Origin: an uncultured Bacteroidales bacterium
GTDB taxonomy: Bacteria > Bacteroidota > Bacteroidia > Bacteroidales > FEN-979
Assembly (NCBI GenBank): GCA_903828645.1
Contig: CAIKNA010000285.1
Location: 1-64,000, forward strand
Direction: 5' to 3'
DNA: 64,000 nucleotides
Position numbers and translations under genes: made by a program. Below the pieces are notes generated by a model. The model saw nothing but the letters and a program-made list of their open reading frames with translations, did no database searches and was not told the origin of the DNA. Shown here in pieces: positions 1,998 through 32,868 of the stretch. Every line of letters begins with the position of its first letter. The stretch's first letter is position 1.

Positions 1998-2008
1998 ACA
2001 TACTGATT

Positions 2009-2317
2009 ATGAATGAAATGTTAAAATTTTTCTTCGAATACCGGGAAGCGATCTTCATCATCATTTTATCCATTTTCCTTGGGATAGAGGTGATTTCGCA
2101 TGTTCCTTCGGTATTGCACACCCCCCTGATGTCGGGGGCAAACGCCATTCACGGTGTGGTGATCATCGGGGCGATCATCGTGATGGGACATGCAACCAAC
2201 CTGCTCTCCATGATCCTCGGATTTGTCGCGGTGGTGCTCGGAACCCTGAATGTTGTGGGCGGTTTCGTGGTCACCGACCGGATGCTGGAAATGTTCAAGA
2301 AAAAGAAAAAACAATAA
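2009..2317 (+). CDS. pntAB: NAD(P) transhydrogenase subunit alpha part 2 (membrane)
   Basis: Small membrane protein EVISHVPSVLHTPLMSGANAIHGVV. Confidence 0.92.
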   Translation: MNEMLKFFFEYREAIFIIILSIFLGIEVISHVPSVLHTPLMSGANAIHGVVIIGAIIVMGHATNLLSMILGFVAVVLGTLNVVGGFVVTDRMLEMFKKKKKQ

Positions 2318-2326
2318 CGGGGCATT

Positions 2327-3799
2327 ATGGAAACGATACAAACTATTACAAAAACCTTCGATTTTACAGGTTATCTATCGATCCTGGAATTGTCGTACAT
2401 CCTGGCTTCGGTACTCTTCATCCTGGGACTGAAAAAACTAAGTCATCCCGACACGGCGCGCAGCGGGAATCTTTGGGCCGCCGGCGGCATGGTTCTCGCC
2501 ATCCTCTGCACCATCCTGCTCCACAAATCGAAACTGGAGGACGGCACTTACCAGGAGATTCATAATATTCCATGGATTCTCGGGGCACTTGTCATCGGCA
2601 CGGCTGTTGGCTGGGTGGCTGCCAGGAAGGTGAAAATGACGGCAATGCCGCAGATGGTCTCGTTGTTCAACGGGATGGGCGGCGCCTGCGCAGCGCTGAT
2701 CTCCATGATGGAATTTCCAAGGATGCAGACGACACTTGCCGCGCACCAGGCAACCTCGATGTTCAGCGGCGAAGCGCTCGCCATCCTGCTGGGACTCATG
2801 ATCGGGGGCGTTTCATTCGCCGGAAGCATGATCGCCTTCGCCAAACTGGATGAACGGCTGGGCGACATTAAAAGCCCGATCCTGCGTTACATCAATCTTT
2901 CGTTCCTCTTCATCCTTTTTGGTTTTGTCATTTTCGTGATGTTTAAAACCCCGGTGGCTGGCGAAAACTGGATGATATACACCCTTGCCGGGCTGGCCCT
3001 GGTCTACGGTGTTACCTTCGTGATGCCCATCGGCGGTGCCGACATGCCTGTGGTGATCTCGCTTCTCAACTCTTTTACAGGGGTTGCGGCGGCCATGGGC
3101 GGCTTCCTGTATCACAACCAGGCAATGCTGACAGGCGGCATCCTCGTCGGTTCCTCCGGCACCATCCTGACCATCCTCATGTGCAAGGCCATGAACCGGT
3201 CGTTGCTGAATGTCATCATCGGGGCCTTTGGCGGAAATGCAGCCGCAAGCGCCCAGAGCGGCGATAAAACGGTGAAGGAGATATCCCTGAGTGATGCTGC
3301 CATCCTGCTGAGTTACTCCCAGAAGGTCTTGGTTGTTCCAGGCTACGGTCTTGCCGTTGCCCAGGCCCAGCATCTCTGTCATGAACTGGAAAACCTCCTG
3401 GCTTCGAAGGGAGTCGAACTGAAATACGGCATCCACCCGGTGGCCGGCCGCATGCCCGGACACATGAACGTGCTGCTTGCCGAAGCCGATGTCGCCTATG
3501 AAAAACTCCAGGAGATGGAAGACGCGAATAACGAGATGTCAAATACCGACGTCGTAATCGTTGTAGGCGCGAACGACGTAGTAAATCCCGCCGCCGAAGA
3601 TGATCCTTCAAGCCCCATTTACGGCATGCCCGTCATCAAGGTGTGGGAGGCGAAAAACACGATCATCATGAAACGCAGCATGGCCAAAGGATATGCTGCA
3701 ATCGAAAACAACCTTTTTTTCCTGCCCAAATCCCGCATGCTCTTTGGTGATGCCAAAGCAACCCTGCAGAAACTTGTAAGCGAAATCAAAAATCTCTGA
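2327..3799 (+). CDS. pntB: NAD(P) transhydrogenase subunit beta
   Basis: VPGYGLAVAQAQH, IHPVAGRMPGHMNVLLAEA, VVIVVGANDVVNPAA motifs. Confidence 0.95.
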   Translation: METIQTITKTFDFTGYLSILELSYILASVLFILGLKKLSHPDTARSGNLWAAGGMVLAILCTILLHKSKLEDGTYQEIHNIPWILGALVIGTAVGWVAARKVKMTAMPQMVSLFNGMGGACAALISMMEFPRMQTTLAAHQATSMFSGEALAILLGLMIGGVSFAGSMIAFAKLDERLGDIKSPILRYINLSFLFILFGFVIFVMFKTPVAGENWMIYTLAGLALVYGVTFVMPIGGADMPVVISLLNSFTGVAAAMGGFLYHNQAMLTGGILVGSSGTILTILMCKAMNRSLLNVIIGAFGGNAAASAQSGDKTVKEISLSDAAILLSYSQKVLVVPGYGLAVAQAQHLCHELENLLASKGVELKYGIHPVAGRMPGHMNVLLAEADVAYEKLQEMEDANNEMSNTDVVIVVGANDVVNPAAEDDPSSPIYGMPVIKVWEAKNTIIMKRSMAKGYAAIENNLFFLPKSRMLFGDAKATLQKLVSEIKNL

Positions 3800-3823
3800 T
3801 CCCGATTTGGTTGGGACAAAAAA

Positions 3824-3850
3824 AGAGGGCACCCTTTGGGGAGGCCCTCT
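3824..3850. terminator. Bidirectional rho-independent terminator between convergent genes
   Basis: AAAAAAAGAGGGC...GCCCTCTTTTTTT: 7-bp stem with A tract before and T tract after. Confidence 0.85.
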
Positions 3851-3869
3851 TTTTTTGTCTGCCTGAGAA

Positions 3870-4166
3870 TTATTTTTTACCTTTTTTGGCAGGTTTTTCA
3901 GCTTTGGCTGGTTTTGCAGGTTTGAATAATTTCGGGAATTTCTTCACGGAATCAGCATGTGCAATAGAGTCGGCAATCTGTTTTTCTTGTTGAACTTTTG
4001 CAATAGAATCGGCGATTCTCTGCTGCTCAGCCTGCACCATTGCTAATGAGTCGGCAACACGGATTGAGTCAGCAATTCTTTTGTCTTCGATTTCCTTTGC
4101 ATTCGGGCCACAGGAGTACATGAAAGCTACTACTCCGATAACTAATAATGTTGCAAGTTTTTTCAT
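3870..4166 (-). CDS. Small lipoprotein with repeated IADSI segments and Lys/Pro/Ala-rich tail
   Basis: Signal peptide plus lipobox-like FMYSCGPN; repeated (R/Q)IADSI units; KPAKPAKAEKPAKKGKK tail. Confidence 0.75.
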   Translation of the reverse strand: MKKLATLLVIGVVAFMYSCGPNAKEIEDKRIADSIRVADSLAMVQAEQQRIADSIAKVQQEKQIADSIAHADSVKKFPKLFKPAKPAKAEKPAKKGKK

Positions 4167-4416
4167 TGTCTATTGATTTTTTGGAATTTAATGTGCAAAG
4201 ATACTTCAATCGGCTGCTACCCTCCAAATATTTAGGCCACTATTTTTAACATTTTTTAACATTTGACATAATGCCCTGAATGTCAACATGAAAATAATTC
4301 ATACATTTTATAAGTTTAACACCGTGTTTCCCCATTTTCAACTTCTTTACATTCCGGCCGGCGCTGACCGCTAAAAGGAAATCTGAAGCCGCGTGACCGG
4401 CGCAGAGGGAATTGCG

Positions 4417-4424
4417 TATCTTTG
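4417..4424 (+). promoter_or_regulatory. Bacteroidota -7 box TATCTTTG for rarA
   Basis: Matches TAnnTTTG; box ends 4 nt before ATG at 4429. Confidence 0.7.
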
Positions 4425-4428
4425 TTAC

Positions 4429-5697
4429 ATGTTAGTACCATTGGCAGAGCAACTGAGGCCCGATTCGCTGGAAAACTACCTGGGTCAGGAACACCTGATC
4501 GGTAAGGGAGCCATCCTTCAGCGCGCCATTGAATCGGGCAACGTGCCATCGATGATCCTCTGGGGTTCGCCGGGCATCGGTAAAACCACGCTGGCCTACA
4601 TCATTTCGAAACAATTAAACCGAACCTTCTACACCCTGAGCGCCGTCAGTTCGGGGGTTAAGGAGGTGCGCGAAGTGATAGCCAGGGCGCAGGAGGCGAG
4701 CGACAGCCCCTTCCTGTTCATCGACGAGATCCACCGTTTCAGCAAATCGCAGCAGGACGCGCTGCTGGGTGCGGTTGAGAAAGGTGTTGTGACCTTCATC
4801 GGCGCGACGACCGAAAATCCATCCTTCGAGGTCATCTCCCCGCTCCTGTCGCGTTGCCAGGTTTATATCCTCAAGCCCCTCGAAGAACACCACCTCCTAA
4901 AACTGCTGGAGCAGGGCCGATCGCACCTTGAAAACACTTTAAAAATCAACATTGAGGTTCCTGAGCCGGAGGCAATCCTGCGCATTTCGGGAGGAGATGC
5001 CCGGAAACTCCTCAACGCACTGGAGCTGATCGTTACGACCGAGATGAAACAGTCACTCCCTGTGCGTATCACCAATGAGAAGACCATTCAGATCATCCAG
5101 CAGAACCTGGCCATGTACGATAAAACCGGGGAGATGCATTACGACATCATTTCGGCCTTTATCAAATCGATGCGCGGGAGCGACCCGAATGCTGCCGTGT
5201 ACTGGCTGGCCAGGATGATCGAGGCCGGGGAGGATCCGAAATTCATAGCCCGGCGGATGCTGATCCTTGCTTCGGAAGACATCGGGAATGCCAACCCGAA
5301 CGCACTGCTGCTGGCAACCTCCTGTTTCCAGGCCGTGGATGTGATCGGCTATCCCGAGTGCGACCTGATCCTTTCCCAGACGGCCATCTACCTGGCATGT
5401 TCTCCAAAGAGCAATGCTTCATACCTTGCCATCAGGAATGCACAAAAGTCGTTCAGGGAGGCCGGCGACCTGCCTGTCCCACTGCATATCCGCAACGCGC
5501 CGACCAACCTGATGAAAAAGATTGGTTACGGGAAAGATTACAAGTATGCCCATGATTATGATAAAAATTTCATTGAGCAGGAGTTTCTTCCCGAGAAGAT
5601 CAAAGGCTCCAGGTTCTACGACCCCCAGGACAACCAGCGCGAGAACGAGATCAGGGCGAGGATGAAGGCGTTGTGGAAGGGGAAATACAAATATTAA
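4429..5697 (+). CDS. rarA: Replication-associated recombination protein A, AAA+ ATPase (start revised from 4393)
   Basis: [55 protein letters not shown]; the 4393 start lies upstream of the promoter box. Confidence 0.92.
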
Positions 5698-5817
5698 ATG
5701 GCGAAAAGGTGAAAAGGTGAAATGGCGAAAAGGTGAAAAGGTGAACAGGTGAAAAGGTTAACAGGTGAACAGGTGAACAGGTGACAAGGTGACAAGGTGA
5801 CAAGGTGGAGAGGTAAA
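5698..5817 (+). repeat. Octanucleotide tandem array (~15 copies, AAGGTGAA/CAGGTGAA/ATGGCGAA)
   Basis: Read directly; begins at the first base after the rarA TAA. Confidence 0.95.
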
Positions 5818-5843
5818 AAAGGTAAAAATGGTTTAAATGACGT

Positions 5844-5857
5844 ATTGCCTATTGCCT
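5844..5857 (+). repeat. Heptamer ATTGCCT x2
   Basis: Direct reading; same unit (reverse complement) as the array at 13826-13860. Confidence 0.6.
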
Positions 5858-5868
5858 TACTGAAGTAT

Positions 5869-5876
5869 TATCTTTG
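5869..5876 (+). promoter_or_regulatory. -7 box TATCTTTG upstream of kdsA
   Basis: TAnnTTTG match, 22 nt before ATG at 5899. Confidence 0.7.
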
Positions 5877-5898
5877 TAACAATCTAAATATCAAACAT

Positions 5899-6714
5899 AT
5901 GGATGGCATGTTTTTCAATGACCTGAGGGATCGCAGGGGTGGGAATTTTTTCCTGATCGCAGGGCCTTGTGTAGTGGAGAATGAAAAAATGCCGCTTGAG
6001 ATTGCGACCCGGATCAAACAGATCACGGACAGGCTGGACATTCCCTTTATTTTCAAGGCCTCCTACCAGAAGGCGAACCGGTCGCATCCCGATTCGTTTA
6101 CTGGGATCGGGCTTGAGAAAGCGCTGGCGCTCATCCTGGAGGTTGGCATCGAACTGGGCATCCCGGTACTCACCGACATCCACACCGAACAACAGGCAGC
6201 CATCGCGGCCGGGTTCGCGGATGTGCTGCAGATCCCTGCGTTTCTCTGCCGGCAATCGGACCTGCTGGTTGCCGCCGGGAAGACCGGAAGGGTGGTGAAC
6301 ATCAAAAAAGGGCAATTCGCTTCAGCCGAATCGATGCAGTTTGCCGTTGAAAAAATCCTGCGAACCGGCAACAACAAAATCATGCTTACCGAACGTGGCA
6401 CCACTTTTGGTTACCGCGACCTGATCGTGGATTTCAGAAACATACCCGAAATGCAGGCCATCGGCGTGCCGGTGGTGGTCGACGTGACCCATTCGCTTCA
6501 ACTTCCCAACCAGCCAAACGGTATTACGGGCGGGCGCCCGGATCTTATCGGGACCATGGCCAGCGCTGCGATTGCGGTGGGTGCCGATGGTATTTTCCTG
6601 GAAACCCATCCCGATCCGCTGAATGCAAAATCGGATGGCGCCAACATGCTGCCACTGGACCAGCTCGAAAAGCTGCTCGAAAAGCTGGTGAGGATCAGGA
6701 AAGCGGTTTATTGA
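5899..6714 (+). CDS. kdsA: 3-deoxy-8-phosphooctulonate synthase (start revised from 5797)
   Basis: FLIAGPCVVENE, FKASYQKANRS, LTERGTTFGYRDLIVDFRN, VFLETHPDP. Confidence 0.94.
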   Translation: MDGMFFNDLRDRRGGNFFLIAGPCVVENEKMPLEIATRIKQITDRLDIPFIFKASYQKANRSHPDSFTGIGLEKALALILEVGIELGIPVLTDIHTEQQAAIAAGFADVLQIPAFLCRQSDLLVAAGKTGRVVNIKKGQFASAESMQFAVEKILRTGNNKIMLTERGTTFGYRDLIVDFRNIPEMQAIGVPVVVDVTHSLQLPNQPNGITGGRPDLIGTMASAAIAVGADGIFLETHPDPLNAKSDGANMLPLDQLEKLLEKLVRIRKAVY

Positions 6715-7889
6715 ATCTTCAAGCCTTTGATACCGCCTGTTTCCTTATGGAACCGGACCTGCCACTTCCCGGCGGGCAGCCAGCTGACAACGCCAAGCTG
6801 ACTGACAAGGCACTGCGTCTCTTCCTGGACATTCTCATCGAGTTTAACGGTAACACGCGCCAGTTCAGGAATCCGATAGGAGAAACCATGAATTTTGGGC
6901 TCCTTTTCCGCCTTTGAAAGATAACTGGCTACCGTATTGGTGTTGCCGACACGCTGGATCCTGATGGTAACCACTTTGCCACCCGGTTCGTCCAGGTCGA
7001 TCAGCCCCTTTGATTTGTGGAATTTAAAGACCGGGATCTCGGTGTTGATCTGGTTGGGAACAGGAATGTACTTATAACTGAACGACATGCTTTTGTGAAC
7101 ACTCACCCCCGTGAACAACTTCATGTATTCCTTTTCCATGGTCTTCAGCTGAAGGTCCATGTATTCCAGCGTCTCCTTGTTGTAGTTGACCTCCTGCTGC
7201 CCGCTGATCAGGGTGTAGCGGTTATCCTTGATCTTCGAGATGAAGTCGGCCGCCTCTTTGGCTTTCTGTTCAGGAGATTTTTCGACGATGGTCTTTTTAA
7301 GGTACTGTCTTTCCACCGTCATGGTGTCGAGGTTGATCTTGCGGATGATGGTGTCCACTTTTTCGAAAATACTCGCATCCGCCGAATACTTGAAAAGTTC
7401 GCCGAAGGCATCCCGGTCGTTTTCCTGTGCTGCTTCAACGGTCTTCCTTACGCGCATCGGGGCCGTAAGCGAATCGTCCTTCCCTTCGATGGTTCCGAGA
7501 ATCAAGCCGGCATCGCTCAGCGAGAGCAGACCATCCTTCTCCCCTTTCGATATCTTATCGCCGAGTTCAATAAAATAATATTGCTCCGGATCGGGTTCGG
7601 GATAGGTGGTGATCGATATTTCACTGATCCTGTATTCGATTGAATTGGCACTGATCACATTTTTCAAGCCCAGGAACCGGAGGGCAAAATCGGCATAGGG
7701 TCCCCTGAAGTTTTCAACGCGGTCAATCCTGACATCAACCTTTACCACGGTTCGCGGAAGAGAATAAAAAATCCCTTCCTTTGACAGAGGTGACGCGTTG
7801 TTATCAATGTGCAGTACATTGATCTGGCCGAAAACGGTGCAGATCCCGAAGATCTGTACCGTGACCAGCAATAGGAATATCTTCTTCAT
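6708..7889 (-). CDS. DUF4831 family secreted protein
   Basis: Signal peptide; YSLPRTVVKVDVRIDRVENFRGPYADFALRFLGL typical of DUF4831. Confidence 0.75.
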   Translation of the reverse strand: MKKIFLLLVTVQIFGICTVFGQINVLHIDNNASPLSKEGIFYSLPRTVVKVDVRIDRVENFRGPYADFALRFLGLKNVISANSIEYRISEISITTYPEPDPEQYYFIELGDKISKGEKDGLLSLSDAGLILGTIEGKDDSLTAPMRVRKTVEAAQENDRDAFGELFKYSADASIFEKVDTIIRKINLDTMTVERQYLKKTIVEKSPEQKAKEAADFISKIKDNRYTLISGQQEVNYNKETLEYMDLQLKTMEKEYMKLFTGVSVHKSMSFSYKYIPVPNQINTEIPVFKFHKSKGLIDLDEPGGKVVTIRIQRVGNTNTVASYLSKAEKEPKIHGFSYRIPELARVTVKLDENVQEETQCLVSQLGVVSWLPAGKWQVRFHKETGGIKGLKIQ

Positions 7890-7897
7890 AACAGTTT

Positions 7898-10084
7898 CTA
7901 TCTTGTAAATAAAAGTTCACGGTATTTTGGCAGGGGCCACAGTTCATCATCAACGAGCAGCTCGAGCTTGTCGACATGATAGCGGATCCTGTCGAAGAAG
8001 GGAAATACCTTTTCGCAATAGGCGAAGGCCTTTTCTTCGGTTTCGCTGAGGCGGTTGGCATCTTTCCTGGCTTCGATCATCAGGTTGACATAGGTTTTGA
8101 TCTTGTCAACGTGTTCGGAAATCTCGGTGATGGTCTCCATCTGGTTCTGCGATAGTTTGCCGTAGGTCTTGAGGTCGAGCACCTGTTTGAGTCCCTTCAC
8201 ATTTTCAATCAGCGTGTTCTGGTAGCGGATGGCCACGGGGATGATATGGTTCCCGGCCAGGTCGCCCAGAACACGCGATTCGATCTGGACCTTCTTGGTA
8301 TAATTCTCCAACCTGATCTCATGACGGGCCTCAAGCTCCCGTTTTGAAAGAACATGGTTGCTTTCAAAAAGTTCCAGGGTCCTTTTGTGAACGAAGGCCT
8401 TCAGCGCCTCCGGGGTTGTCTTGAAATTTGAGAGGCCGCGCTTTGTTGCCTCCTTTACCCACTCTTCCGAGTAATTGTTACCTTCAAACCTGATCTTTTT
8501 CGACTCCTTGATGTACCGTTTGATAACCTGGAAAATGGCCTGGTCCTTTGTTTCCTTTTTCGCTATGAGGGCATCCACATCCAGTTTGAACTTCCGCAGC
8601 TGGTTGGCCACGATGAGATTCAGAACGATCATCGGCGGGGCACAGGTCTGTGCCGAACCGACCGCCCTGAATTCAAACTTGTTGCCGGTAAATGCGAAGG
8701 GCGAGGTACGGTTGCGGTCGGTATTGTCGAGCAGGATTTCCGGAATTTTCGGCAGATCCTTCAACAGTCCGTCGGTTTCGGAATTGATGAAAACATGCGA
8801 ATCGGCCTTCTCAATGGCATCCAGCATCTGGGTAAGCCTCGCGCCTATGAAGACGGAGATGATGGCAGGCGGCGCCTCGTTGGCCCCAAGGCGATGGTCG
8901 TTGCCCGGCGAAGCAATGACCGCGCGGATGAGATCGGCATGTTCATGAACTGCCTTCAGGATATTGACCAGGAAGGCCAGGAAACGAAGGTTGGATTTTG
9001 TCGTTTTCCCGGGCGATAAAAGGTTTTCGTGCGTATTGGTTGCCAGCGACCAGTTGTTGTGTTTCCCCGAGCCGTTTACGCCGCCGAAAGGTTTTTCGTG
9101 GAGGAGCACGGTAAGGTTGTGCCGTTTCGCGATTTTGTCGATGAGGTGCATCATCAGCTGGTTATGGTCAATGGAGAGGTTGACCTCTTCGAAGACCGGC
9201 GCACATTCGAACTGGTTGGGTGCAACCTCGTTGTGACGCGTTTTTACGGGGATTCCGAGCCGGTGGGCTTCGTATTCAAATTCCTGCATGAAGGCAAGCA
9301 CCCGCTGCGGGATGGTCCCGAAGTAGTGGTCCTCCAGTTGCTGATCCTTTGCCGAAGAGTGCCCGAAGAGGGTCCTGCCGGTAAGCACCAGGTCGGGACG
9401 TGCCTGGTAAAGGGCGCTGTCGACCAGGAAATACTCCTGTTCCCAGCCGAGGGTCGAAAATACCTTCGTGATATCCTTGTCAAAGTACTGGCATACATCC
9501 ACGGCCGCCTTATCGATCGTATAGATGGCTTTCAGCAAAGGCGTCTTAAAATCAAGCGCTTCGCCCGTGTAGGAAACGAACACGGTGGGAATGCACAGTG
9601 TGCGGTCGGTGATGAAAGCGGGCGAGGTGGGATCCCAGGCGGTGTAACCACGGGCTTCGAAGGTGCTTCGGATTCCCCCGCTCGGAAAACTCGAGGCATC
9701 GGGTTCCTGCTGGGTGAGTTCGCTCCCCCTGAATTTCTCGATGCCTTTGCCCCCTTCGACAGGATCGACAAATGCATCATGTTTCTCGGCAGTTGCGCCG
9801 GTAAGCGGCAGGAACCAGTGGGTGTAATGAGTGGCGCCCCTGCTGATGGCCCACGCCTTGATCCCCGCGGCAACCTGGTCGGCAATACGGCGGTCGATCT
9901 TTTCGCCCTTTTCGATTGAATTCATCACCTGCGTGTAGGCCTCTTCGGTGAGGTATTCGCGCATGGCGGCATTGTTAAAAGTTAACTCTCCAAAATATTC
10001 TGACGCTTTCTGGCCGGGATATTTCACCAGTTGCTGACTCCTGGTCATCGCCAGCTCCAGTGCCCTGAAACGCAAATTATCCAT
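7898..10084 (-). CDS. glnN: Glutamine synthetase type III
   Basis: 728 aa; ATHYTHWFLPLTG, KPFGGVNGSGKHNNWSL, RTSPFAFTGNKFEFRAVGS. Confidence 0.93.
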   Translation of the reverse strand: MDNLRFRALELAMTRSQQLVKYPGQKASEYFGELTFNNAAMREYLTEEAYTQVMNSIEKGEKIDRRIADQVAAGIKAWAISRGATHYTHWFLPLTGATAEKHDAFVDPVEGGKGIEKFRGSELTQQEPDASSFPSGGIRSTFEARGYTAWDPTSPAFITDRTLCIPTVFVSYTGEALDFKTPLLKAIYTIDKAAVDVCQYFDKDITKVFSTLGWEQEYFLVDSALYQARPDLVLTGRTLFGHSSAKDQQLEDHYFGTIPQRVLAFMQEFEYEAHRLGIPVKTRHNEVAPNQFECAPVFEEVNLSIDHNQLMMHLIDKIAKRHNLTVLLHEKPFGGVNGSGKHNNWSLATNTHENLLSPGKTTKSNLRFLAFLVNILKAVHEHADLIRAVIASPGNDHRLGANEAPPAIISVFIGARLTQMLDAIEKADSHVFINSETDGLLKDLPKIPEILLDNTDRNRTSPFAFTGNKFEFRAVGSAQTCAPPMIVLNLIVANQLRKFKLDVDALIAKKETKDQAIFQVIKRYIKESKKIRFEGNNYSEEWVKEATKRGLSNFKTTPEALKAFVHKRTLELFESNHVLSKRELEARHEIRLENYTKKVQIESRVLGDLAGNHIIPVAIRYQNTLIENVKGLKQVLDLKTYGKLSQNQMETITEISEHVDKIKTYVNLMIEARKDANRLSETEEKAFAYCEKVFPFFDRIRYHVDKLELLVDDELWPLPKYRELLFTR

Positions 10085-17991: not shown

Positions 17992-18022
17992 AAATCGTAA
18001 ATCGTAATTCGTAAATCGTAAA
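17992..18022 (+). repeat. Right arm of the 31-bp inverted repeat; last base is the A of the ATG at 18022
   Basis: AAATCGTAAATCGTAATTCGTAAATCGTAAA read directly. Confidence 0.97.
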
Positions 18023-18639
18023 TGTTACTAAAGATCCATCCCGACAACCCCAGCGAACGCCAGCTGAAGATCGTGGTCGATTGTCTCCGGCGCGGAGGGG
18101 TTATAATCTATCCTTCCGATACGGTATATGGTTTGGGGTGCGATATTACGCAGATCAAAGCGGTGGAGCGGGTGGCGCAGATCAAGGGGATCCGACGCGA
18201 AAAGGCCAATTTTTCATTCGTGTGCAGCGACCTCAGCCAGCTTTCGGGCTACTCCAAACCCATTCCTAACCACACGTACAAAGTTATGCGTCATGCGCTT
18301 CCGGGCCCATTCACCTTCATCCTGAACGCCACGAGCGAAGTTCCCCATTTTTTCCAGAGCAAAAAGAAGACGGTCGGCATCCGTATTCCCGATCATAAGG
18401 TCCCGATCCAGATCGTGGAATTGCTCGGCAACCCCATCATGACCACTTCCATCCATTCGGAGGATGAGATCATGGATTACCTGACCGACCCGGAGCTGAT
18501 CCACGAAAAGTTCCTCAAGCTGGTCGATATCGTCATTGATTCAGGCCATTGCGGGAACATCCCCTCCACGGTTGTTGACTGTACGGGTGATGAAATGATC
18601 GTGACCAGGCCGGGAAAAGGCGACATAATGCAATATTAG
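18022..18639 (+). CDS. L-threonylcarbamoyladenylate synthase family (Sua5/YciO/YrdC)
   Basis: GGVIIYPSDTVYGLGCDI, PGPFTFIL, VGIRIPDH, PSTVVDCT. Confidence 0.9.
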   Translation: MLLKIHPDNPSERQLKIVVDCLRRGGVIIYPSDTVYGLGCDITQIKAVERVAQIKGIRREKANFSFVCSDLSQLSGYSKPIPNHTYKVMRHALPGPFTFILNATSEVPHFFQSKKKTVGIRIPDHKVPIQIVELLGNPIMTTSIHSEDEIMDYLTDPELIHEKFLKLVDIVIDSGHCGNIPSTVVDCTGDEMIVTRPGKGDIMQY

Positions 18640-18730: not shown

Positions 18731-18806
18731 GATTAGCTAGCTCAGCCGGTAGAGCATCGCCCTTTTAAGGCGGGGGTCCTGGGTTCGAATCCCAGGCTGA
18801 TCACCA
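18731..18806 (+). tRNA. tRNA-Lys(TTT), CCA encoded
   Basis: Cloverleaf folded by hand: acceptor GATTAGC/GCTGATC, anticodon loop CTTTTAA, T arm CTGGGTTCGAATCCCAG. Confidence 0.97.
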
Positions 18807-18807
18807 A
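18791..18807 (+). mobile_element. Putative attL: tRNA-Lys 3' end
   Basis: CCCAGGCTGATCACCAA repeated exactly at 22515-22531. Confidence 0.7.
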
Positions 18808-18830
18808 GGAGGCTTAACGGCCTCCTTTTT
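18808..18830 (+). terminator. Rho-independent terminator after tRNA-Lys
   Basis: GGAGGC TTAACG GCCTCC TTTTTTT. Confidence 0.9.
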
Positions 18831-18856
18831 TTATGCCTCTTATACAATAATAGTGA

Positions 18857-20650
18857 TTATACATTCGTGTTATCCTCTTGCGTTTGAGTAGGTTTTTTTT
18901 CCAACTTCTCAATTGTTTTCTTTGCATTTGCCAATCGTACTGCTTTATTTTTCTCTACCAACTTTTCTTTAGACCATTTTTCTAACCTGTGATGTAATGG
19001 TATAAGCAATGCTGCAATACACACCAAAGCCAATAACATCATCAACGGAGCATGATTTGTTATTCTTTCCAAATACGGATGCAATAGCAGGTTCAGGAAC
19101 TCAAACACAATCAGCAAAGCCATCACACTCAAAAACGCTATCAGTTTTGTGTTGGTGATAAAACTGCGGCTGAGTAATAAAAAGAGAATGATAAAAGAAA
19201 TAATGCCAAGGGCAATTAAAGCGTATTGAATATTTTGTTTTCGTTCTTTTTCGTCCTGCTTTTGTTTGACAGCAATGGATTTTTGTCTTTCCTGCTCATT
19301 TAAAGTCAGGTTTTTAATGTCTCTTTTATTAGCGGCGTTATTCAAACTGTCTGATAATTTTACCTCCATCATTAAATAATTGAAAGCAGTATCTTTATTG
19401 CTGTTTTTATAAAGCTCGGCAAGGTTCCTGTAAATAACAGGCATAAGTATTTCCTCAGGCATTGTTTTCAGTGCCTCTTTGTAATAAACAATTGCTGAAT
19501 CTGTATGCCCGTTTGATTTAAATGCTTCACCAAGCCCCATGCAGATTAGTCCGTGAATCCAATTGTCATAAGATGTTTCGGCCTTATTCATCATCAGCGC
19601 CAGGCTTTCTTTATAATAGGACATTGCTATCGACAAATTGCCCAACTGATAATTAACCTTGCCAAGACCATATAAGGTAAATGCATAAGTTGCCGGATTG
19701 GAAATTTTTATTTCATTGTTTGCTAAAGCATTTGATTCCTGAAAATAAGGCAAAGCAGAATCTGGGATATTAAGAACTATATATTTATATCCAATGTTAT
19801 TCGCACTGTTTATCACCCTTAATATATTTTCTCTGTGCTTTTTGTATATTGCGTACGCTTTTTTATTATACAAAATCGAACTCTCTTCGTCACCTAAATT
19901 ATCATACACGCCACCTAATTCAAGCCATGTACCGGCAATGCCGGATGTATCGCTCATCTTTTCATAAAGTTTCAGTAAATCAAAATTAAGTTCCAGTGCT
20001 TTCCTGAAATTTCTATTCCTTGTATAAACCTGTTCGATCTGAGCCAGGCTGCTTGCCCGGTATTTGTCATTTTTTAATTTCCCAGCTAATTCATAAGCAC
20101 GGCTAAGATACAGCAAGGCGGTGTCATTTTTAGAATAATAAAAACGTGCGTATTCAGTAAGGCTGATAATTGTGTTGGTGTCTTGTTTGAATTCCTTTAT
20201 AACACGTTGCAAACTGTCCAGGTACTTTTTTTGTGATGAGGCAATGATGGCAAGGAGGTATTTAAATTCTTTTTCATTCTGAATGTTGTTTAAGTCGCTG
20301 TCAGCTTGAATGTGATCATAATCAAAGTAGCCCGCGTCAATTGATTTTTTCAGGGACCGTAACGCCTGCGCTTTATTACCCGTCAACGAATAGACGCAAC
20401 ACAGACTATAATAAATATTCGGTAAATAATAGCTATATTTTTTCCTGACTTCAGCAGAGAGTTTACCGTATTGCAATCCAGATTCCTCAGCTAATTTTTT
20501 GTAGATAGCCGTATCTTTTTGGTTGTAGGCGTGGAGGAGCAAACTTTCCCTGTGCCGTGCGGATTTTAAAAAGTCGCCTTCAGTAATTTGTGCTTGGGTA
20601 ACAGTTAAGATGAAAGAAAAAAGGAAGAGTAGTGTTTGTTTAATTTTCAT
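18857..20650 (-). CDS. TPR-repeat protein with signal peptide, three TM segments and C-terminal coiled coil
   Basis: Multiple TPR units (e.g. YAFTLYGLGKVNYQLGNLSIAMSYYKESLAL) followed by hydrophobic segments. Confidence 0.8.
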   Translation of the reverse strand: MKIKQTLLFLFSFILTVTQAQITEGDFLKSARHRESLLLHAYNQKDTAIYKKLAEESGLQYGKLSAEVRKKYSYYLPNIYYSLCCVYSLTGNKAQALRSLKKSIDAGYFDYDHIQADSDLNNIQNEKEFKYLLAIIASSQKKYLDSLQRVIKEFKQDTNTIISLTEYARFYYSKNDTALLYLSRAYELAGKLKNDKYRASSLAQIEQVYTRNRNFRKALELNFDLLKLYEKMSDTSGIAGTWLELGGVYDNLGDEESSILYNKKAYAIYKKHRENILRVINSANNIGYKYIVLNIPDSALPYFQESNALANNEIKISNPATYAFTLYGLGKVNYQLGNLSIAMSYYKESLALMMNKAETSYDNWIHGLICMGLGEAFKSNGHTDSAIVYYKEALKTMPEEILMPVIYRNLAELYKNSNKDTAFNYLMMEVKLSDSLNNAANKRDIKNLTLNEQERQKSIAVKQKQDEKERKQNIQYALIALGIISFIILFLLLSRSFITNTKLIAFLSVMALLIVFEFLNLLLHPYLERITNHAPLMMLLALVCIAALLIPLHHRLEKWSKEKLVEKNKAVRLANAKKTIEKLEKKPTQTQEDNTNV

Positions 20651-20794
20651 ATGTCAAAGTTGATTTCTCGCAGTCAGTTCAAAGTTAGCAGGTCGCCCAG
20701 GCATGACGCATAACGATTGCATAAACTGAACAGACTGTGGTATTTTTGTAATAGGTAAAATTACAATAATATCCATACTTAAATCGGGCAACAG

Positions 20795-20825
20795 TAAAAA
20801 GCCTGCCAGATCACCCCGACAGGCT
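20795..20825 (-). terminator. Possible terminator (minus strand)
   Basis: Minus strand AGCCTG...CAGGCTTTTTA, 6-bp stem. Confidence 0.45.
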
Positions 20826-20869
20826 CTTCAACTAACCTGCTTATGAAAACAGCTACAACGCTTCTTGAA

Positions 20870-21130
20870 TTAAATTATTGGCGGGTTGGGATCCATCAAT
20901 AGAACTCCTTCATAAAAGGCCATTGGCGAACCCTGTTTGCACAGGAAGCCGAACTTGTGGCCTTTATCCTTGTCGGTCTCCTCACCGCAGGTTGTTTCGA
21001 TGGTTTCGATGTGGGCAAGGTTGCAAGACTCCCCTATCAGGTACCGCTTATTTGAGGCGACGTTCTGAATGATGACAATCCCTTTGAATCCGATCCAGAA
21101 GTTCCGGATCTGTTTCTGTAGTGCTTTATC
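20870..21130 (-). CDS. Hypothetical protein, possibly a C-terminal remnant; ORF track extends it to 21259
   Basis: Open frame ...LQKQIRNFWIGFKGIVIIQNVASNKRYLIGESCNLAHIETIETTCGEETDKDKGHKFGFLC...; no good start; upstream part overlaps the divergent ATPase promoter. Confidence 0.35.
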   Translation of the reverse strand, partial: DKALQKQIRNFWIGFKGIVIIQNVASNKRYLIGESCNLAHIETIETTCGEETDKDKGHKFGFLCKQGSPMAFYEGVLLMDPNPPII

Positions 21131-21181
21131 GATGCCCGGGTAAAATAATTCTCTTTTCAGAAAAATGTTTAATCGTTTTAT

Positions 21182-21189
21182 GTATTTTT
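21182..21189 (+). promoter_or_regulatory. -7 box TATTTTTG upstream of the ATPase
   Basis: TAnnTTTG match 27 nt before ATG at 21217. Confidence 0.55.
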
Positions 21190-21216
21190 GTAATTGAAAT
21201 TCATAATTACATAAAA

Positions 21217-22380
21217 ATGATACCAAGAAAATTATCCGGTGCCATCCTGAAATTTGCAAAGAAATATCCGGTAGTTTCTGTTACCGGCCCGCGACAATCG
21301 GGTAAAACAACGCTTGTCAGGTCACTTTTCCCGAACCATAAATACCTGTCCCTTGAAAATCCGGAAACAAGGCACCGTGCGCTTAATGATCCCAAAGGTA
21401 TTTTTGACCAGGTGGACCAATTGCTGATCCTGGATGAAATTCAGCATGTTCCTGAATTATTATCCTATATACAGGTAATCTCAGATGAACAAAAGATCCC
21501 TGGACAATTTATACTTACCGGTTCCCAAAGCTTGTTACTTAGTGAAAAGATATCCCAGACGTTGGCCGGAAGAACGGCTATCTTGAAACTCCTCCCCTTC
21601 AGTCTGACTGAAATTGAAAATTTGAAACAAGTCAAGGATTTTTCTTACGAGGACTTCATCTTTAAAGGGTTCTTTCCGAGAACATATGACCAGAATATCT
21701 CCCCGGAAGAATTTTATCCATTTTACCTGGAGACTTATGTTCAAAGAGATGTGAGGGAAATTCAAAATGTCAGGGACCTTAACACCTTTACCAATTTTGT
21801 GAGGTTATGTGCAGGACGCACGGGCCAATTGATTGATTATTCTTCCCTGGCTAAAGATACCGGCGTCAGCGTCAGCACAATTAAAGGCTGGATTTCAATC
21901 CTGGAAGCAGGTTACATCATTTTCCAATTGTATCCCTACTACAGGAATTATGGAAAAAGAGTTATCAAATCGCCTAAAATCTATTTCACCGATCCGGGGT
22001 TGGTTTCATATCTTCTGGGAATAAAAAGCGCTGAGCAATTGAAAACGCATTACCTGAAAGGCGCTTTGTTCGAAAACCTGGTCATTCTGGAGTTGCTGAA
22101 ACAGCGATATAACAATGGAGTCCCGCAGGATATCTGGTTCTTTCGCGACAGCAATCACAATGAAGTGGATGTTGTCGCAGAAAATGAGTTGCTGCAATGG
22201 ATGGAAATTAAATCCGCAAGAACTTTTTCACCAGATTTTATCACCACATTCCGGTTTCTTGATAAAAACGAGGAGGCAGGGAAGGATAATAAGTCGATCA
22301 TATATGGCGGTGATGACACTTTCACATATAAAGGATATAAAATAGTATCATGGAGAGATCTAAGGAAGTTTGAAACGTAG
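21217..22380 (+). CDS. AAA ATPase with DUF4143 domain (AAA_14 family)
   Basis: VTGPRQSGKTTLVRSLFPNHKYLSLE, LILDEIQHVPELLSYIQ, FILTGSQSLLL, LFENLVILELLKQ...FFRDSNHNEVDVV. Confidence 0.9.
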   Translation: MIPRKLSGAILKFAKKYPVVSVTGPRQSGKTTLVRSLFPNHKYLSLENPETRHRALNDPKGIFDQVDQLLILDEIQHVPELLSYIQVISDEQKIPGQFILTGSQSLLLSEKISQTLAGRTAILKLLPFSLTEIENLKQVKDFSYEDFIFKGFFPRTYDQNISPEEFYPFYLETYVQRDVREIQNVRDLNTFTNFVRLCAGRTGQLIDYSSLAKDTGVSVSTIKGWISILEAGYIIFQLYPYYRNYGKRVIKSPKIYFTDPGLVSYLLGIKSAEQLKTHYLKGALFENLVILELLKQRYNNGVPQDIWFFRDSNHNEVDVVAENELLQWMEIKSARTFSPDFITTFRFLDKNEEAGKDNKSIIYGGDDTFTYKGYKIVSWRDLRKFET

Positions 22381-22514
22381 ACTGTATCAGTGTTTTAAGG
22401 GGTATGGTCACTCTACCGGATCTTCATCCTCAAAAAAACACAAATCTGATACAGCGACAATATAAATATTCGGAATCCTTAGATAAATGGTCATTACAGC
22501 AAAAGTGTCCAAGC

Positions 22515-22531
22515 CCCAGGCTGATCACCAA
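22515..22531 (+). mobile_element. Putative attR: 17-bp copy of the tRNA-Lys 3' end
   Basis: Exact CCCAGGCTGATCACCAA; upstream GTGTCCAAGC partly resembles the T arm. Confidence 0.7.
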
Positions 22532-22563
22532 AGGCCACTTGATTACCATGCCAAAACAACGAA

Positions 22564-22590
22564 AACCAGCGGAAACGCTGGTTTTTTTTT
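22564..22590 (+). terminator. Rho-independent terminator downstream of putative attR
   Basis: AACCAGC GGAAAC GCTGGTT TTTTTTT. Confidence 0.9.
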
Positions 22591-22758
22591 ACTCCCTTTT
22601 ACGGCAGTTTCATACATAATTATGGATCAAGAGGAATTACCGGATACGACGCACTTTCCCTATAGCCGCTGTATCCATTGCATATGAATCCTGTATCAAT
22701 CCTATATCGTTTCTATATCTGGTCACCCTCGATCGACCCTGCTGCCAACCATGTAGCT

Positions 22759-28103: not shown

Positions 28104-28712
28104 ATGACACCCATCAACGAAAATATATTCCCTGTATTTCATGAGATACTGGGCAGGGCCGAAAAAGAAACATTATTACACCAGCGGTCAAAAGTGATAT
28201 GGCTTACGGGATTATCAGGGGCTGGAAAAACGACGCTGGCGAAGTATCTCGAAGAGGCGCTCCATAATAAAGGGTTTCTTACCCAGGTCCTTGACGGGGA
28301 CAACATCCGGTCGGGAATCAACAACAACCTTGGTTTTAGCGACAGCGACCGCTACGAAAACATTCGCAGGATCGCCGAGATTTCAAAGTTGTTCATGGAT
28401 TGCGGTGTAATAACCATCAATTGTTTCATCAGCCCTACCGAAGACATCCGCGACCTTGCGCGCCGGATCATTGGACAGGATGATTTCATTGAAGTTTATG
28501 TAAATGCTCCCCTGAACGTTTGTGAAGCACGAGATGTAAAAGGTTTATACACCCGTGCCCGGAGAGGGGAGATCAAGGAGTTTACGGGCATCACCTCGCC
28601 GTTTGAGACACCCGAAAATATTGACCTTGAAATCCGCACCGATCTGCTTTCCATCGAAGAATCGGTTGAACAGATCCTGGAGGTGATCCTGCCTAGGATT
28701 GATTATCATTGA
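28104..28712 (+). CDS. cysC: Adenylylsulfate kinase
   Basis: VIWLTGLSGAGKTTLAKYLE, LDGDNIRSGINNNLGFSDSDR, EVYVNAPLNVCEARDVKGLY. Confidence 0.93.
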   Translation: MTPINENIFPVFHEILGRAEKETLLHQRSKVIWLTGLSGAGKTTLAKYLEEALHNKGFLTQVLDGDNIRSGINNNLGFSDSDRYENIRRIAEISKLFMDCGVITINCFISPTEDIRDLARRIIGQDDFIEVYVNAPLNVCEARDVKGLYTRARRGEIKEFTGITSPFETPENIDLEIRTDLLSIEESVEQILEVILPRIDYH

Positions 28713-31700
28713 TCCTGTAAACACCGCACGGAAAAACCATTTCTCCTTCCCGAAGAATAATCAGAAACCGACACAACCGCATTGTTCAATCCATGTGCTT
28801 TGGCCTGCCATAAACCTGTTGGTTCTGAGGACCAGAAAAACGTTGCGGCGAAATCAGGCGGATTGAACGACCAGTTCGTTTGATTCTGGTAAAGAACTCC
28901 TCCCATCAAGGCTTTAAAACTGCCTGCTCCCTTATCTCTGAGTAACTCGCCCGCTGCAGCTTGACCACCATAAAAACCGAACAGTTCAGCCCATTCTGCT
29001 TCTGCCGGAACATGCCATCCCGGAGGGCACAACCCCTGGTGTCCTTCAACGGCCTGATCATATCGCATAAGCTCATCCCATTGATAAATGCCGCCGAAGA
29101 TGTTGCAATTTGCTTCATTGTTGTTGAGGCAATATTTATCATTTACACAATTATCCGTTTGGGGATCAGTCGCGATTTTGAGTGTGCCATAGTTTAAGTT
29201 CCCTGCAAACCAGCATTGGGTTCCTATCCGCACAATCGGGTAAACCCTGAGATCACGCAGGTCGGTTAGAGCCGGATCCACCAGGCAATTTGCAGGAGGC
29301 TCGCCATGGTTGTTTATCACCTGCAACTTGCTTACCGCACACATGCCTGAGGGAGGATATGTATAGGTTACGGTGTGGGCACCCTGGCCGGCAACGGAAG
29401 GATCGAAAAAACCAGTTAATGAATTTACCCCGTCCCCTGAATAAACACCTCCGCTTGGAAGGCCTCCCCTCAGCCTGAAAGGTTTGGCATAGACAGCTGT
29501 TACTATATCATGGCAGGCTGCATAGGTAACCACGGGGACTGTGACCACTGCTATGGTCAGGGATGCACTTATGGCAGGGTTGACCGTCGGACATAAAACA
29601 TCGGCTGTCAATTCGCAGGTGATCTCATCATTGGCGACCGGGATGAAAGAGTAGATGGCATTGGTGGCACCGGGTACAGGCTGACTATTTACTTTCCATT
29701 GATACAAAGGAACAGCCCCGCCATTCACTGGGATGGCTGTGCAGGTTACAGGGGTTCCACCACAAACCAAAGTGGCGGAGACCGAAACCGAAACACTCAC
29801 GTTTACAAGGGGATTCACCGTCATCGTCACCGGGGTGGAAATGGCCGGATTACCTGTCGGACAGGCCGCACTGGAAGCCAGTTTACAGGTAATAACATCA
29901 TTGCTTACGGGGATAATTGAATAGGTGATACCGGTTGCTCCGGAAATTTCGACACCATTTACCTGCCATTGATAGGCAGGTGTCATCCCTTCATTCACGG
30001 GCACTGCCGTGAAGGTTACCGTTGTACCCGAACAAACCTCATCGGTTACGGGTGCAATTGAAATGCTGACCGGAAGGTACGGGTTCACTGTCATGATCAC
30101 GGAACCCGATGCAGAGGGATTAACAAAGGCACAGGTAGCATTTGAAGTCAGTACACAACTGACAAGGTCATTGTTTACCGGCACATAGGTAAAAACAGTG
30201 TTACCCGTTCCTGCATCGGCACCGTTGACCTTCCACTGGTAAGATGGCGCATTGCCGCCGTTGACGGATGTTGCTGTAAAGGTAACGGGCGTCCCGGCGC
30301 AAACCGGGTTTGAAGAGGGTGCAATCGTTATGCTAACGGTAAGAACCGGGTTCACGGTCATGGTCACAGAACCTGAATTAGCCGGGTTGCCTGTTGCACA
30401 CACTGCATTGGAAGTAAGTTCGCAGGTGAGTACATCATCGTTTACCGGGACATAAGTATAACCGGAACCGCCCGTTCCTGCATTCGTTCCATTGACTTTC
30501 CACTGATAGGCTGGCAAAGTTCCCCCGTTGGTGGCAATCGCAGTGAAGAGCACCGGCGTCCCGCCACAAACCGGGTTGGCTGAGGATGAAATCGAAACAC
30601 TTACCGGCAGAATTGGATTCACAAACATGGTCACTGCACCGGATGTAGCCGGGTTCCCCGAAGCACACATTGCATTGGAAGTGAGCTGGCAAGTGATTGC
30701 ATCATTGTTTGCAGGAACATAATTATAAACTGAACCTGCTGTTCCGGCATCGATTCCGTTGACCTTCCACTGATAGGATGGAGCAGTGCCTCCATTGATA
30801 ATGGTGGAAGTAAAAGTGACAGATGTGCCGGCGCATAAGGGGTTGGAAGATGATGCAATCGAAATGGCGACCGGAAGAACCGGGTTAACGGTCATGGTCA
30901 CGGGGGCGGAAGTTGCCGGGCTGCCGGTTGAACAGATCGCATCGGAGGTGAGTTCACATGTGATCACATCATTGTTTGCCGGCAGATATATATACACGGG
31001 ATTACCTGTTCCGGCATTGGTACCGTTGACTTTCCACTGGTAAACCGGTGCAGCGCCGCCATTGGCCACTGTGGCTGTAAAGGAAACGGAGTTGCCCGCA
31101 CATACCGGGTTGGAGGATGGTGCGACCGAAATGGCAGCCGGAAGGACAGGGTTCACAGTCATGGTTAAAATACCGGAGGTTGAGGGATTGCCTGTCGCGC
31201 AGGTTGCATTTGAGGTGAGTTCACAGGTTATCAGGTCATTGTCGGCGGGCAAACAGGTGAAAATTGAAGTGCCTGTTCCAGCATTGGTTCCGTTGACTTT
31301 CCACTGGTACAATGGCACCGTGCCACCATTGATGGTCGTTGCAGTGATGGATATTGGTATTCCGGTACAAACCGGATTGACAGAAGGAGCAATCGAAACA
31401 CTGACCGGCAGGTTTGGGTTAACGGTCATGGTAATGGGTGCCGAAGTATATGGACTTCCTGCGGCACAGACAACATCTGAGGTCAGAGTGCAGGTGACAA
31501 TGTCACCATTTACCGGTGTACAGGTGAATACCGGCCCATTTAAACCGACTGCTCCTCCGTTGACCTTCCATTGAAACAGGGGGGCTGAACCCCCGTTTAT
31601 TGTTGTTGCCGTGTAAGTCACCGCTGTTCCATAGCAGACCGTGCTTCCCGGGCTGGAAGTCACCGAAACGGAAACAGGCAGATTAGGGTTGACTTCGGCA

Positions 31701-32620
31701 AAGATGGGCAGCGATGTAACAGTGTTGGCGGATGAACATGTTGCATTCGACATCAAGGTACAGGTTACAACATCGCCATCTGCCGGGGGATACGAAAATG
31801 TAATGGAATTCGTCCCTGCAGGAAGTCCGTTGACTTTCCATTGAAAGGTAGGATTTGAACCACCATTGGAAGGCCAGCTTGTAAAGGTAACAAAGGTGCC
31901 AGCACACACTGGGCCGGTCGGAGATTCAGTTATAGTGACATTCACGGGTATTGCCAGAACGGTCATGGTAATGACGTTTGAAGGCGAAGGATTCACCGTT
32001 GCACAAGATAACTGGGAGTTCATAAGGCATTGAACAGCATCTCCATCAAGCGGGAAGTACGAATAGGTTGTGCTGCTGGTGCCCACATGGTTACCATTAA
32101 CGTACCACTGGTATGAAGGGGAAGGGCCTCCAAATGTTGAAGTTACGGTAAAAGTCACCGGGGTCAGCGCGCAAATCGGGTTTCCGGATGCAACAATAGT
32201 GACGATCGGGGCAAACGATGAACCGATTATCATGTTGATCCCGTTAGAGTATGCCGGGTTGCCGCTCACGCAAAGTTCACCGGAAGTCATTTTACAGGCG
32301 ATAACATCCCCATCTGCGGGGGCATATTCAAAAACAGGAAGATTTGGTCCGGTATTCGCCCCATTCAGCAGCCACTGGTAAGCCGGGGATACACCTCCGT
32401 TGACCGCATCGGCCGTGTAGGTCACAGGAATTCCGACACAAGCCGGATTTGAAGAACATACAACAGAGACACTTGCCGGTAAAATCGGGTTTACCGACAT
32501 TAAAATCGGGTTTGATGTTGCCGGATTGCCAGTGGCACAGGAAAAGCTTGATGAAAGTTGAAAACAAGCGTTGCGCCACTTTTTAAAACGCTCCAGGTAG
32601 AGGAGGTCAGGGTGGAGGAA
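28706..32620 (-). CDS. Large secreted-type protein: 11 full ~90-aa Ig-like repeats plus a partial one, then C-terminal FISUMP domain; current frame lacks a signal peptide
   Basis: Repeated NPxLPVSVSIAPSSNPVCAGTPVTFTATxxNGGxxPxYQWKVNGTxAGT...CELTSNATCATGNPATSxxVTMTV; C-terminal GTQCWFAGNLNYG...CPPGWHVPAEAEWAEL...GFSVRCLQ. Confidence 0.85.
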   Translation of the reverse strand, partial: FLHPDLLYLERFKKWRNACFQLSSSFSCATGNPATSNPILMSVNPILPASVSVVCSSNPACVGIPVTYTADAVNGGVSPAYQWLLNGANTGPNLPVFEYAPADGDVIACKMTSGELCVSGNPAYSNGINMIIGSSFAPIVTIVASGNPICALTPVTFTVTSTFGGPSPSYQWYVNGNHVGTSSTTYSYFPLDGDAVQCLMNSQLSCATVNPSPSNVITMTVLAIPVNVTITESPTGPVCAGTFVTFTSWPSNGGSNPTFQWKVNGLPAGTNSITFSYPPADGDVVTCTLMSNATCSSANTVTSLPIFAEVNPNLPVSVSVTSSPGSTVCYGTAVTYTATTINGGSAPLFQWKVNGGAVGLNGPVFTCTPVNGDIVTCTLTSDVVCAAGSPYTSAPITMTVNPNLPVSVSIAPSVNPVCTGIPISITATTINGGTVPLYQWKVNGTNAGTGTSIFTCLPADNDLITCELTSNATCATGNPSTSGILTMTVNPVLPAAISVAPSSNPVCAGNSVSFTATVANGGAAPVYQWKVNGTNAGTGNPVYIYLPANNDVITCELTSDAICSTGSPATSAPVTMTVNPVLPVAISIASSSNPLCAGTSVTFTSTIINGGTAPSYQWKVNGIDAGTAGSVYNYVPANNDAITCQLTSNAMCASGNPATSGAVTMFVNPILPVSVSISSSANPVCGGTPVLFTAIATNGGTLPAYQWKVNGTNAGTGGSGYTYVPVNDDVLTCELTSNAVCATGNPANSGSVTMTVNPVLTVSITIAPSSNPVCAGTPVTFTATSVNGGNAPSYQWKVNGADAGTGNTVFTYVPVNNDLVSCVLTSNATCAFVNPSASGSVIMTVNPYLPVSISIAPVTDEVCSGTTVTFTAVPVNEGMTPAYQWQVNGVEISGATGITYSIIPVSNDVITCKLASSAACPTGNPAISTPVTMTVNPLVNVSVSVSVSATLVCGGTPVTCTAIPVNGGAVPLYQWKVNSQPVPGATNAIYSFIPVANDEITCELTADVLCPTVNPAISASLTIAVVTVPVVTYAACHDIVTAVYAKPFRLRGGLPSGGVYSGDGVNSLTGFFDPSVAGQGAHTVTYTYPPSGMCAVSKLQVINNHGEPPANCLVDPALTDLRDLRVYPIVRIGTQCWFAGNLNYGTLKIATDPQTDNCVNDKYCLNNNEANCNIFGGIYQWDELMRYDQAVEGHQGLCPPGWHVPAEAEWAELFGFYGGQAAAGELLRDKGAGSFKALMGGVLYQNQTNWSFNPPDFAATFFWSSEPTGLWQAKAHGLNNAVVSVSDYSSGRRNGFSVRCLQDQ

Positions 32621-32868
32621 CCGGTCGTTTTGATATAAATTTTTACCGGACAACCAACCGGGTTACCCGTGTTCACGTACCATCCGATAGATGTAATCAG
32701 GGTTGATGTAGTCAAACCTGTATAAAGGGTTGCTGAGCGTTCATACCCGTAATACATCCCAAAAGGCTGCTTCTGCGTTGCAGTTCCAGTTCCTATAGTA
32801 AGGACAGTTTGTGCTGACACCAATTGGCAAAATGCGAAAAACGCCAGGATTAGTAATGTTTTCTTCAT
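32560..32868 (-). pseudogene. Signal peptide and N-terminal domain of the repeat protein, out of frame with the repeats
   Basis: MKKTLLILAFFAFCQLVSAQTVLTIGTGTATQKQPFGMYYGYERSATLYT...WSVLKSGATLVFN, then the frame leaves the repeat register. Confidence 0.7.

Follow-up and report, generated by a model that had tools for sequence, protein, structure and literature searches.

Many genomic islands in tRNA genes carry no integrase, and the way in which they move is an open question. In the present study, this question is raised by a 3.7-kb island in a 64,000-nucleotide stretch of an uncultured lake Bacteroidales genome (contig CAIKNA010000285.1, positions 1–64,000; hereafter, the window). The island lies at 18791–22531. 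An earlier note on this DNA described it as bounded by a 17-bp repeat of the tRNA-Lys 3' end and interpreted it as a tRNA attachment-site (att) duplication, with an island that is passively mobilised or has lost its integrase. Our results support the core of this interpretation. They also offer a concrete answer for one genus: the island ends in the attachment arm of a phage family that could be identified. We consider it likely that the island is an integrase-less, att-bounded cassette in the tRNA-Lys 3' end, which carries the right arm of phages encoding the integrase int391 and is mobilised through that integrase.

A phage attachment arm at the end of the island

The repeat, CCCAGGCTGATCACCAA, was as exact as reported: it occurs at 18791–18807 and 22515–22531, both on the forward strand, with zero mismatches. 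When up to three mismatches are allowed, the window contains three matches (the third at 15243, with 3 mismatches) against 0.24 expected. The left copy belongs to the 3' end of a tRNA-Lys(ttt) gene (18731–18806, forward strand, ARAGORN), which is the integration target, and the shared core, CCCAGGCTGATCAC, is at 18791–18804. An intact tRNA gene is present at one end and a displaced 3' fragment at the other, as in an att duplication. Only one further exact copy of the repeat occurs in the 5.1-Mb assembly; it lies in another tRNA-Lys gene, where contig C364 ends. This contig end (L003 and L043, genome G000) holds a second DUF4199-yrdC-tRNA-Lys locus in the same metagenome-assembled genome (MAG), with a YrdC approximately 86% identical to that of the window, and it breaks 5 nt past the core. 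It is probably a sister-species contig in the bin.

The distal copy terminates a conserved site of approximately 97 bp, which was detected at more than 20 loci in this genus of lake Bacteroidales and three sister genera. The comparison set comprised 18 other species of the genus, all uncultured, with one genome per species. A search pattern of 22 bases around the distal core revealed extra copies of the site in most congeners, and the reversed pattern, used as a control, gave 0 matches. The copies share ACACAAATCTGATACAG...GAAACCCTACGTACATAGGCGAAACAGTGAAACCGTCCAAGC-CCCAGGCTGATCAC over about 97 bp, and 22 aligned copies showed a mean column identity of 83%. In the window, the arm (ACACAAATCTGATACAG ... 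GTCCAAGC) occupies 22431–22514 on the forward strand. The GTGTCCAAGC that the earlier note had regarded as a degraded T-arm is not tRNA debris, but the end of this arm. Three non-Bacteroidales matches to the pattern in genome contigs were attributed to chance because the arm was missing. Other cores recovered with a bare 14-mer were also mostly chance matches without the arm. At about 2656 of L188 (G006:C211), a core copy without the arm is followed by a type-c-like left end. We rejected an attC-like fold for the site because no conserved secondary structure was predicted; the 6 pairs found were weak, and none of them was compensatory.

Prophages in G017, G031, G020, and their relatives terminate at this site as well. 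The right ends of these prophages run from a TOPRIM primase through a small conserved open reading frame (ORF) and an XRE regulator to the site. The element on G031:C7 encodes a terminase and a head-maturation protease, which indicates a tailed phage. The integrase of this family, int391, is a 391-aa Arm-DNA-bind_5/SAM_5/Phage_integrase protein. In the int391 phages, as in the window island, the left end begins at tRNA-Lys with the terminator GGAGGCTTAACGGCCTCC; in the phages, int391 comes next. In the window, this type-a left end (GGAGGCTTAACGGCCTCC and a T-run) is at 18808–18838 on the forward strand, and the subsequent phage arm repeats are missing. The window copy retains 31 nt of the phage-type left end (18808–18838) and the full right site (22431–22528). 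In L215 (G034:C9, oriented 7770–8510), int391 is shortened to 246 aa, and the genes that follow resemble, by eye, those of an IS21-type insertion.

The integrase sequences fall into subtypes that correspond to the arms. Integrases starting with MRNYSTYK have four ATACA repeats on the left, and the right ends of the matching tRNA-Lys phages (G017, G031, and G020) are ATACA. Those starting with MRNYATYK have three or four ATACC repeats on the left, and ATACC right arms are present in phages at tRNA-Asp, at tRNA-Arg, and in G034. Since the left-arm repeats match both the right arms and the subtype of the integrase arm domain, we regard the site as the right arm of the phage attachment site (attP); this assignment also draws on the site alignment and a hidden Markov model. 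The match is the behaviour that would be expected of arm-type integrase binding sites. The right arm of the window is ATACA, and the match assigns it to an MRNYSTYK-type phage; the subtype of an arm predicts which integrase should move the cassette. Relatives of int391 are located at tRNA-Asp and tRNA-Arg, and a site model search of the same genomes (L204–L209) revealed the arm joined to tRNA-Asp or tRNA-Arg cores instead of the tRNA-Lys core. This suggests that one phage family may switch targets by core replacement. A second integrase family, int398, likewise uses tRNA-Lys; its left end, found in G012, G006, and G007, is different.

Integrase-less cassettes at the tRNA-Lys hot spot

Across the 18 other species, yrdC followed by tRNA-Lys is conserved, and the sequence after tRNA-Lys varies by genome. 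In the window, this conserved left flank is the yrdC/Sua5 gene at 18022–18639 (forward strand; PF01300, 9e-48), which adjoins tRNA-Lys in most congeners. Integrase-less segments of 0.13–7.5 kb lie between the sites and are arranged as arrays at tRNA-Lys. The location is the same in relatives, the cassettes vary, and the tRNA ends are repeated, as in additive islands. The window array is simple: tRNA-Lys, one cassette of 3.7 kb, and then a flank at 22532–22613. The other cassettes measure 1.6 kb in G018 (ATPase only), 5.4 and 1.1 kb in G013, 1.1 and 7.5 kb in G009, 1.1 kb in G017, and 3.7 kb in G004. Gene-less segments of 129–207 bp were found at L051 (G002), L120 (G006), L150/L212 (JAPLDI/G031), and L145/L214 (JANXZO/G034). 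These mini-cassettes comprise just the left terminator and the right site, and an int391 prophage is present right behind one of them in two genomes.

The window cassette has an AAA_14/DUF4143 ATPase gene at 21217–22380 on the forward strand (DUF4143, 1.9e-47; AAA_14, 2.6e-28) and, at 18857–20650 on the reverse strand, a gene for a 597-aa TPR, transmembrane, and coiled-coil protein (TPR families up to 5.8e-16). Both had been named in the earlier note and were identified by Pfam. The short ORF that it listed, at 20870–21259, matched nothing in Pfam, PADLOC, or NCBIfam and may be spurious. Pfam found no recombinase or integrase among the window ORFs inside the island, in agreement with the note. 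The TPR gene is cargo private to the window copy; its relatives elsewhere in the genus are approximately 40% identical or partial, with no close copy. The ATPase and right-end module (20796–22528, forward strand) is common to the window and G013, with 90% nucleotide identity over 1.74 kb. Short pieces of 20709–21146 recur upstream of another ATPase subfamily (G014:C187) and in G004, G005, and G011. The AT-richness of the island held relative to the upstream DNA (38.5% GC in 18810–22515 vs 51%), but the DNA just downstream is at approximately 43%, and the lowest 3.7-kb stretches in the window equal the island.

Movement of the cassettes was judged against yrdC, which is 74–78% identical between these species. 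The window ATPase gene is 94% identical to that of G013, 95–96% to that of G010, and 89% to that of G006, whereas yrdC is 75–77% identical for G013 and G010. A RhuM/Bro-N cassette of approximately 1.12 kb is present in G009, G017, G013, and G005 (cut by the contig start in the last), with different neighbours each time and 83–91% identity between genomes. For a lipoprotein cassette, G004 and G010 share 98.5% identity over 3.3 kb, whereas their yrdC genes are 75.5% identical. G009 and G015 share the type-e cassette (LysR, isocitrate dehydrogenase, PurK, and PurE) at 99.4% identity over 5,329 bp; a comparable chromosomal locus is 70.9% identical between them. The shared sequence begins exactly where the core stops; in G009 this core is a cassette end, and in G015 it is the tRNA gene. 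High cassette identity over a diverged chromosome indicates recent movement in a form without a visible integrase. These comparisons show that, to judge from sequence, integrase-less cassettes have moved horizontally between species with base-exact edges. The type-e cassette (7.5 kb; L118, oriented 1285–8828, G009:C18; L034, G015:C210) contains what are apparently core metabolic genes (isocitrate dehydrogenase, PurK, and PurE). Conserved synteny of the TPR and ATPase genes beside tRNA-Lys, which the earlier note had named as a counter-sign, was not found: the site shows no conservation of the TPR gene, and the ATPase does recur at tRNA-Lys, but as a shuffled, horizontally moving cassette.

An empty site, which the note had proposed to look for in relatives, was nearly realised in G008. 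In this genome, tRNA-Lys runs straight into AAAAGGCCAATTGATTACCAGGCCAAAACAACG, which is also the flank beyond the distal copy in the window and in G006, and the genome contains no second att core; this joint accordingly represents a near-empty site. At about 1645–1715 of L040 (G008), the place of the terminator after tRNA-Lys is taken by an insertion that forms a hairpin (GAGGGTGTCTCAAAAGG...CTTTTGAAATACCCTC). We rejected G012, G006, and G007 as further empty sites because each carries the left end of a prophage, in which the same flank is immediately followed by an int398 integrase. Each 17-bp copy in the window is followed by its own terminator, at 18808–18832 and about 22564–22590, as the note stated. 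Its view that the outer one is simply the original tRNA terminator did not hold: the outer flank (22532–22613, forward strand; terminator AACCAGCGGAAACGCTGG and a T-run) is 87–88% identical to an int398 prophage left end and to the G006/G008 flank, and a flank of this type continues into int398 remnants in G006 and G010. The outer flank may be what is left of an old int398 left end, or it may be ancestral and also carried by the int398 phage.

Proposed mobilisation through int391 and alternative explanations

A family of temperate tailed phages with the tyrosine integrase int391 uses the same tRNA-Lys gene as the cassettes. We propose that the int391 of a resident phage would act in trans: it would bind the arm of a cassette and recombine the cassette core with that of either tRNA-Lys or a neighbouring cassette. 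Cassettes would thereby enter, leave, and stack in tandem, and they may be transferred together with the phage. The predicted circle joint of an excised cassette is ...GTCCAAGC-CCCAGGCTGATCAC-CAAGGAGGC.... A wider reading, which we put forward tentatively as possible but somewhat doubtful, is that these elements form an integron-like system derived from a phage integrase, in which the tRNA gene is the dock, the 97-bp arm is a portable tag, and single genes, above all candidate anti-phage genes, receive this tag and are exchanged between species and stacked by means of the phage enzyme.

Several observations weigh against mobilisation through int391. The site was absent from IMG/VR, where the exact pattern gave 0 matches. 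A 25.3-kb contig in this database that carries int391 at 92% identity counts in favour instead; it has no site, but it breaks off where the integrase starts. Neither the ATPase nor the XRE protein had a confirmed relative in IMG/VR, a result that for the ATPase is not decisive as to packaging by a helper phage. The window copy has no left-arm repeats and, hence, no complete attP with both arms. Its genome contains no int391 at E<1e-30 and has just int398-family fragments, one of which (66%) is on contig C400. Since the left-arm repeats and int391 are both missing, the window cassette is probably stationary at present or excises poorly, and it may be stranded. The cassettes of G013 and G014 retain the left arm and resemble phage left ends cut just before int, which indicates that part of the cassette family consists of deletion remnants. 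Some of the apparent transfers could also have arisen if a whole phage moved and was later reduced by deletion. Neither an excised circle nor a within-species pair of empty and occupied sites was seen in these data, which are fragmented MAGs.

Several of these points also favour the strongest alternative, in which the island is an inert scar: an int391-type prophage at tRNA-Lys was deleted internally until the left terminator, the cargo, and the right end remained, and the product is immobile. The type-a left end of the window is that of int391 phages, the left ends of G013 and G014 are those of phages up to the int start, and the window copy has lost its left arm. The gene-less segments fit a complete internal deletion. 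In G034, the phage XRE gene is separated from the site by a DUF4143 ATPase gene, which there is right-end cargo of the phage. However, integrase-less cassettes are 98.5–99.4% identical between species with a chromosomal identity of 71–76%, with edges at the core, and the same RhuM cassette is intact in four genomes with different neighbours. We therefore regard an inert scar as an unlikely explanation of the island, although this state may well apply to the window copy now, even if the family is mobile.

It is very improbable that the DUF4143 ATPase, an AAA+ protein with a PD-(D/E)XK-like motif, is the mobility enzyme of the cassettes rather than their cargo. By a hand count, DUF4143 genes precede 9 of the 16 genus sites that have an upstream gene on the contig, and they belong to at least two subfamilies (approximately 22% identical), even though the family has only 235 matches in 19 genomes. 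In contrast, the same ends occur on RhuM, lipoprotein, and gene-less cassettes that have no such ATPase, the other DUF4143 loci examined have no site nearby, and the ends themselves are att sites of the classic tyrosine-recombinase type, which match int391.

We give hardly any weight to a chance repeat, a decayed tandem tRNA-Lys gene, or an assembly artefact: the MAG does have 4.6% contamination and the second tRNA-Lys contig, but the chance expectation given above is low, the distal core is preceded by the conserved phage arm and not by tRNA sequence (which also answers the note's own doubt about a decayed tRNA gene), and the arm is conserved in more than 20 independent contigs. It is likewise scarcely credible that the island is an old, vertically inherited region lying between two tRNA-like repeats by happenstance, because the G013, G010, and G006 copies of the ATPase module are far closer than core genes and its position and neighbours vary among genomes, although the G018 ATPase cassette (75% nucleotide identity) is as diverged as yrdC (77%).

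Related systems, cargo, and neighbouring genes

In its tRNA target, repeated tRNA 3' ends, and strain-variable tandem cassettes, the locus resembles additive flexible genomic islands (fGIs), such as fGI1 of Alteromonas at a tRNA gene (PMC4119200) and fGI-2 of 'Ca. Methylopumilus', in which 20-nt tRNA-Lys end repeats recur (330 bp–42 kb; PMC10872708). In contrast to these islands, the repeat in the present locus is the mere end of an approximately 97-bp phage attP arm, and cassettes without an integrase are traced to a named integrase family by the arm/subtype match. Clusters of attC sites lacking integron integrases (CALIN; PMC11389934) also contain small cassettes with one 3' recombination site each and depend on an integrase from elsewhere. 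However, the site here consists of an arm and a tRNA core without a conserved fold and is anchored in a tRNA gene, and int391 scores 40 bits against the 265-bit NCBIfam cut-off for integron integrases.

Phage satellites (P4, phage-inducible chromosomal islands [PICI], and phage-inducible chromosomal minimalist islands [PICMI]) and tycheposons are similarly small, phage-dependent tRNA islands that often carry defence genes. They encode their own integrase, whereas the present cassettes do not, and genes for packaging or regulation were not recognised in them. Miniature inverted-repeat transposable elements (MITEs) and recombinase-less hitchers (PMC11389934) are internally deleted, non-autonomous elements that keep just the ends needed for recombination. 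As in hitchers, the right arm and left terminator are shared with autonomous elements using the same target, namely, the int391-type phages. The difference from MITEs is that the ends are those of a site-specific tyrosine integrase rather than transposon inverted repeats, and that cargo genes are present. In the open-access literature, we found no description of integrase-less, often single-gene cassettes that have a phage attP arm as their defining feature and can be attributed to an integrase subtype. Additive tRNA islands and hitchers are already known; the family of phage-arm cassettes appears to be a new form of them. The 97-bp site can also be used to search freshwater Bacteroidales for further cassettes.

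The cargo includes candidate defence genes. The window ATPase belongs to the PADLOC candidate family PDC-S01 (3.8e-97), and its Walker A, Walker B, and EVD...EIK motifs are intact in the alignment. The RhuM protein is PDC-S13 (1.4e-138). PDC-S01 is reported to be the fourth most common defence entry across prokaryotes, and most PDC families are unvalidated (PMC12988326), including these two candidates. We infer that the window ATPase may be an anti-phage gene. A search by sequence gave no relative of it in the PDB, its AlphaFold model had a pLDDT of 58, with the nuclease-like part near 30, and a literature search on DUF4143 returned unrelated papers alone. If the cassettes do move through int391, temperate phages supply the machinery that spreads candidate anti-phage cassettes among their own hosts.

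In G018, genes for a type II restriction enzyme, a methyltransferase, and a Vsr-like nuclease are present directly to the right of the last site (L048, 3970–6797). Conserved synteny resumes right of the hot spot in the window at a homologue of cysC (adenylylsulfate kinase; 28104–28712, forward strand), which is 81% identical to that of G008 and 78% to that of G001. In G006, G008, G001, G011, and JAPLDN, too, this gene follows on the right-hand side of the last site or the variable region. Adjoining cysC in the window is a very long gene for a repetitive protein (28706–32653), the G008 homologue of which encodes 3,535 aa with internal repeats.

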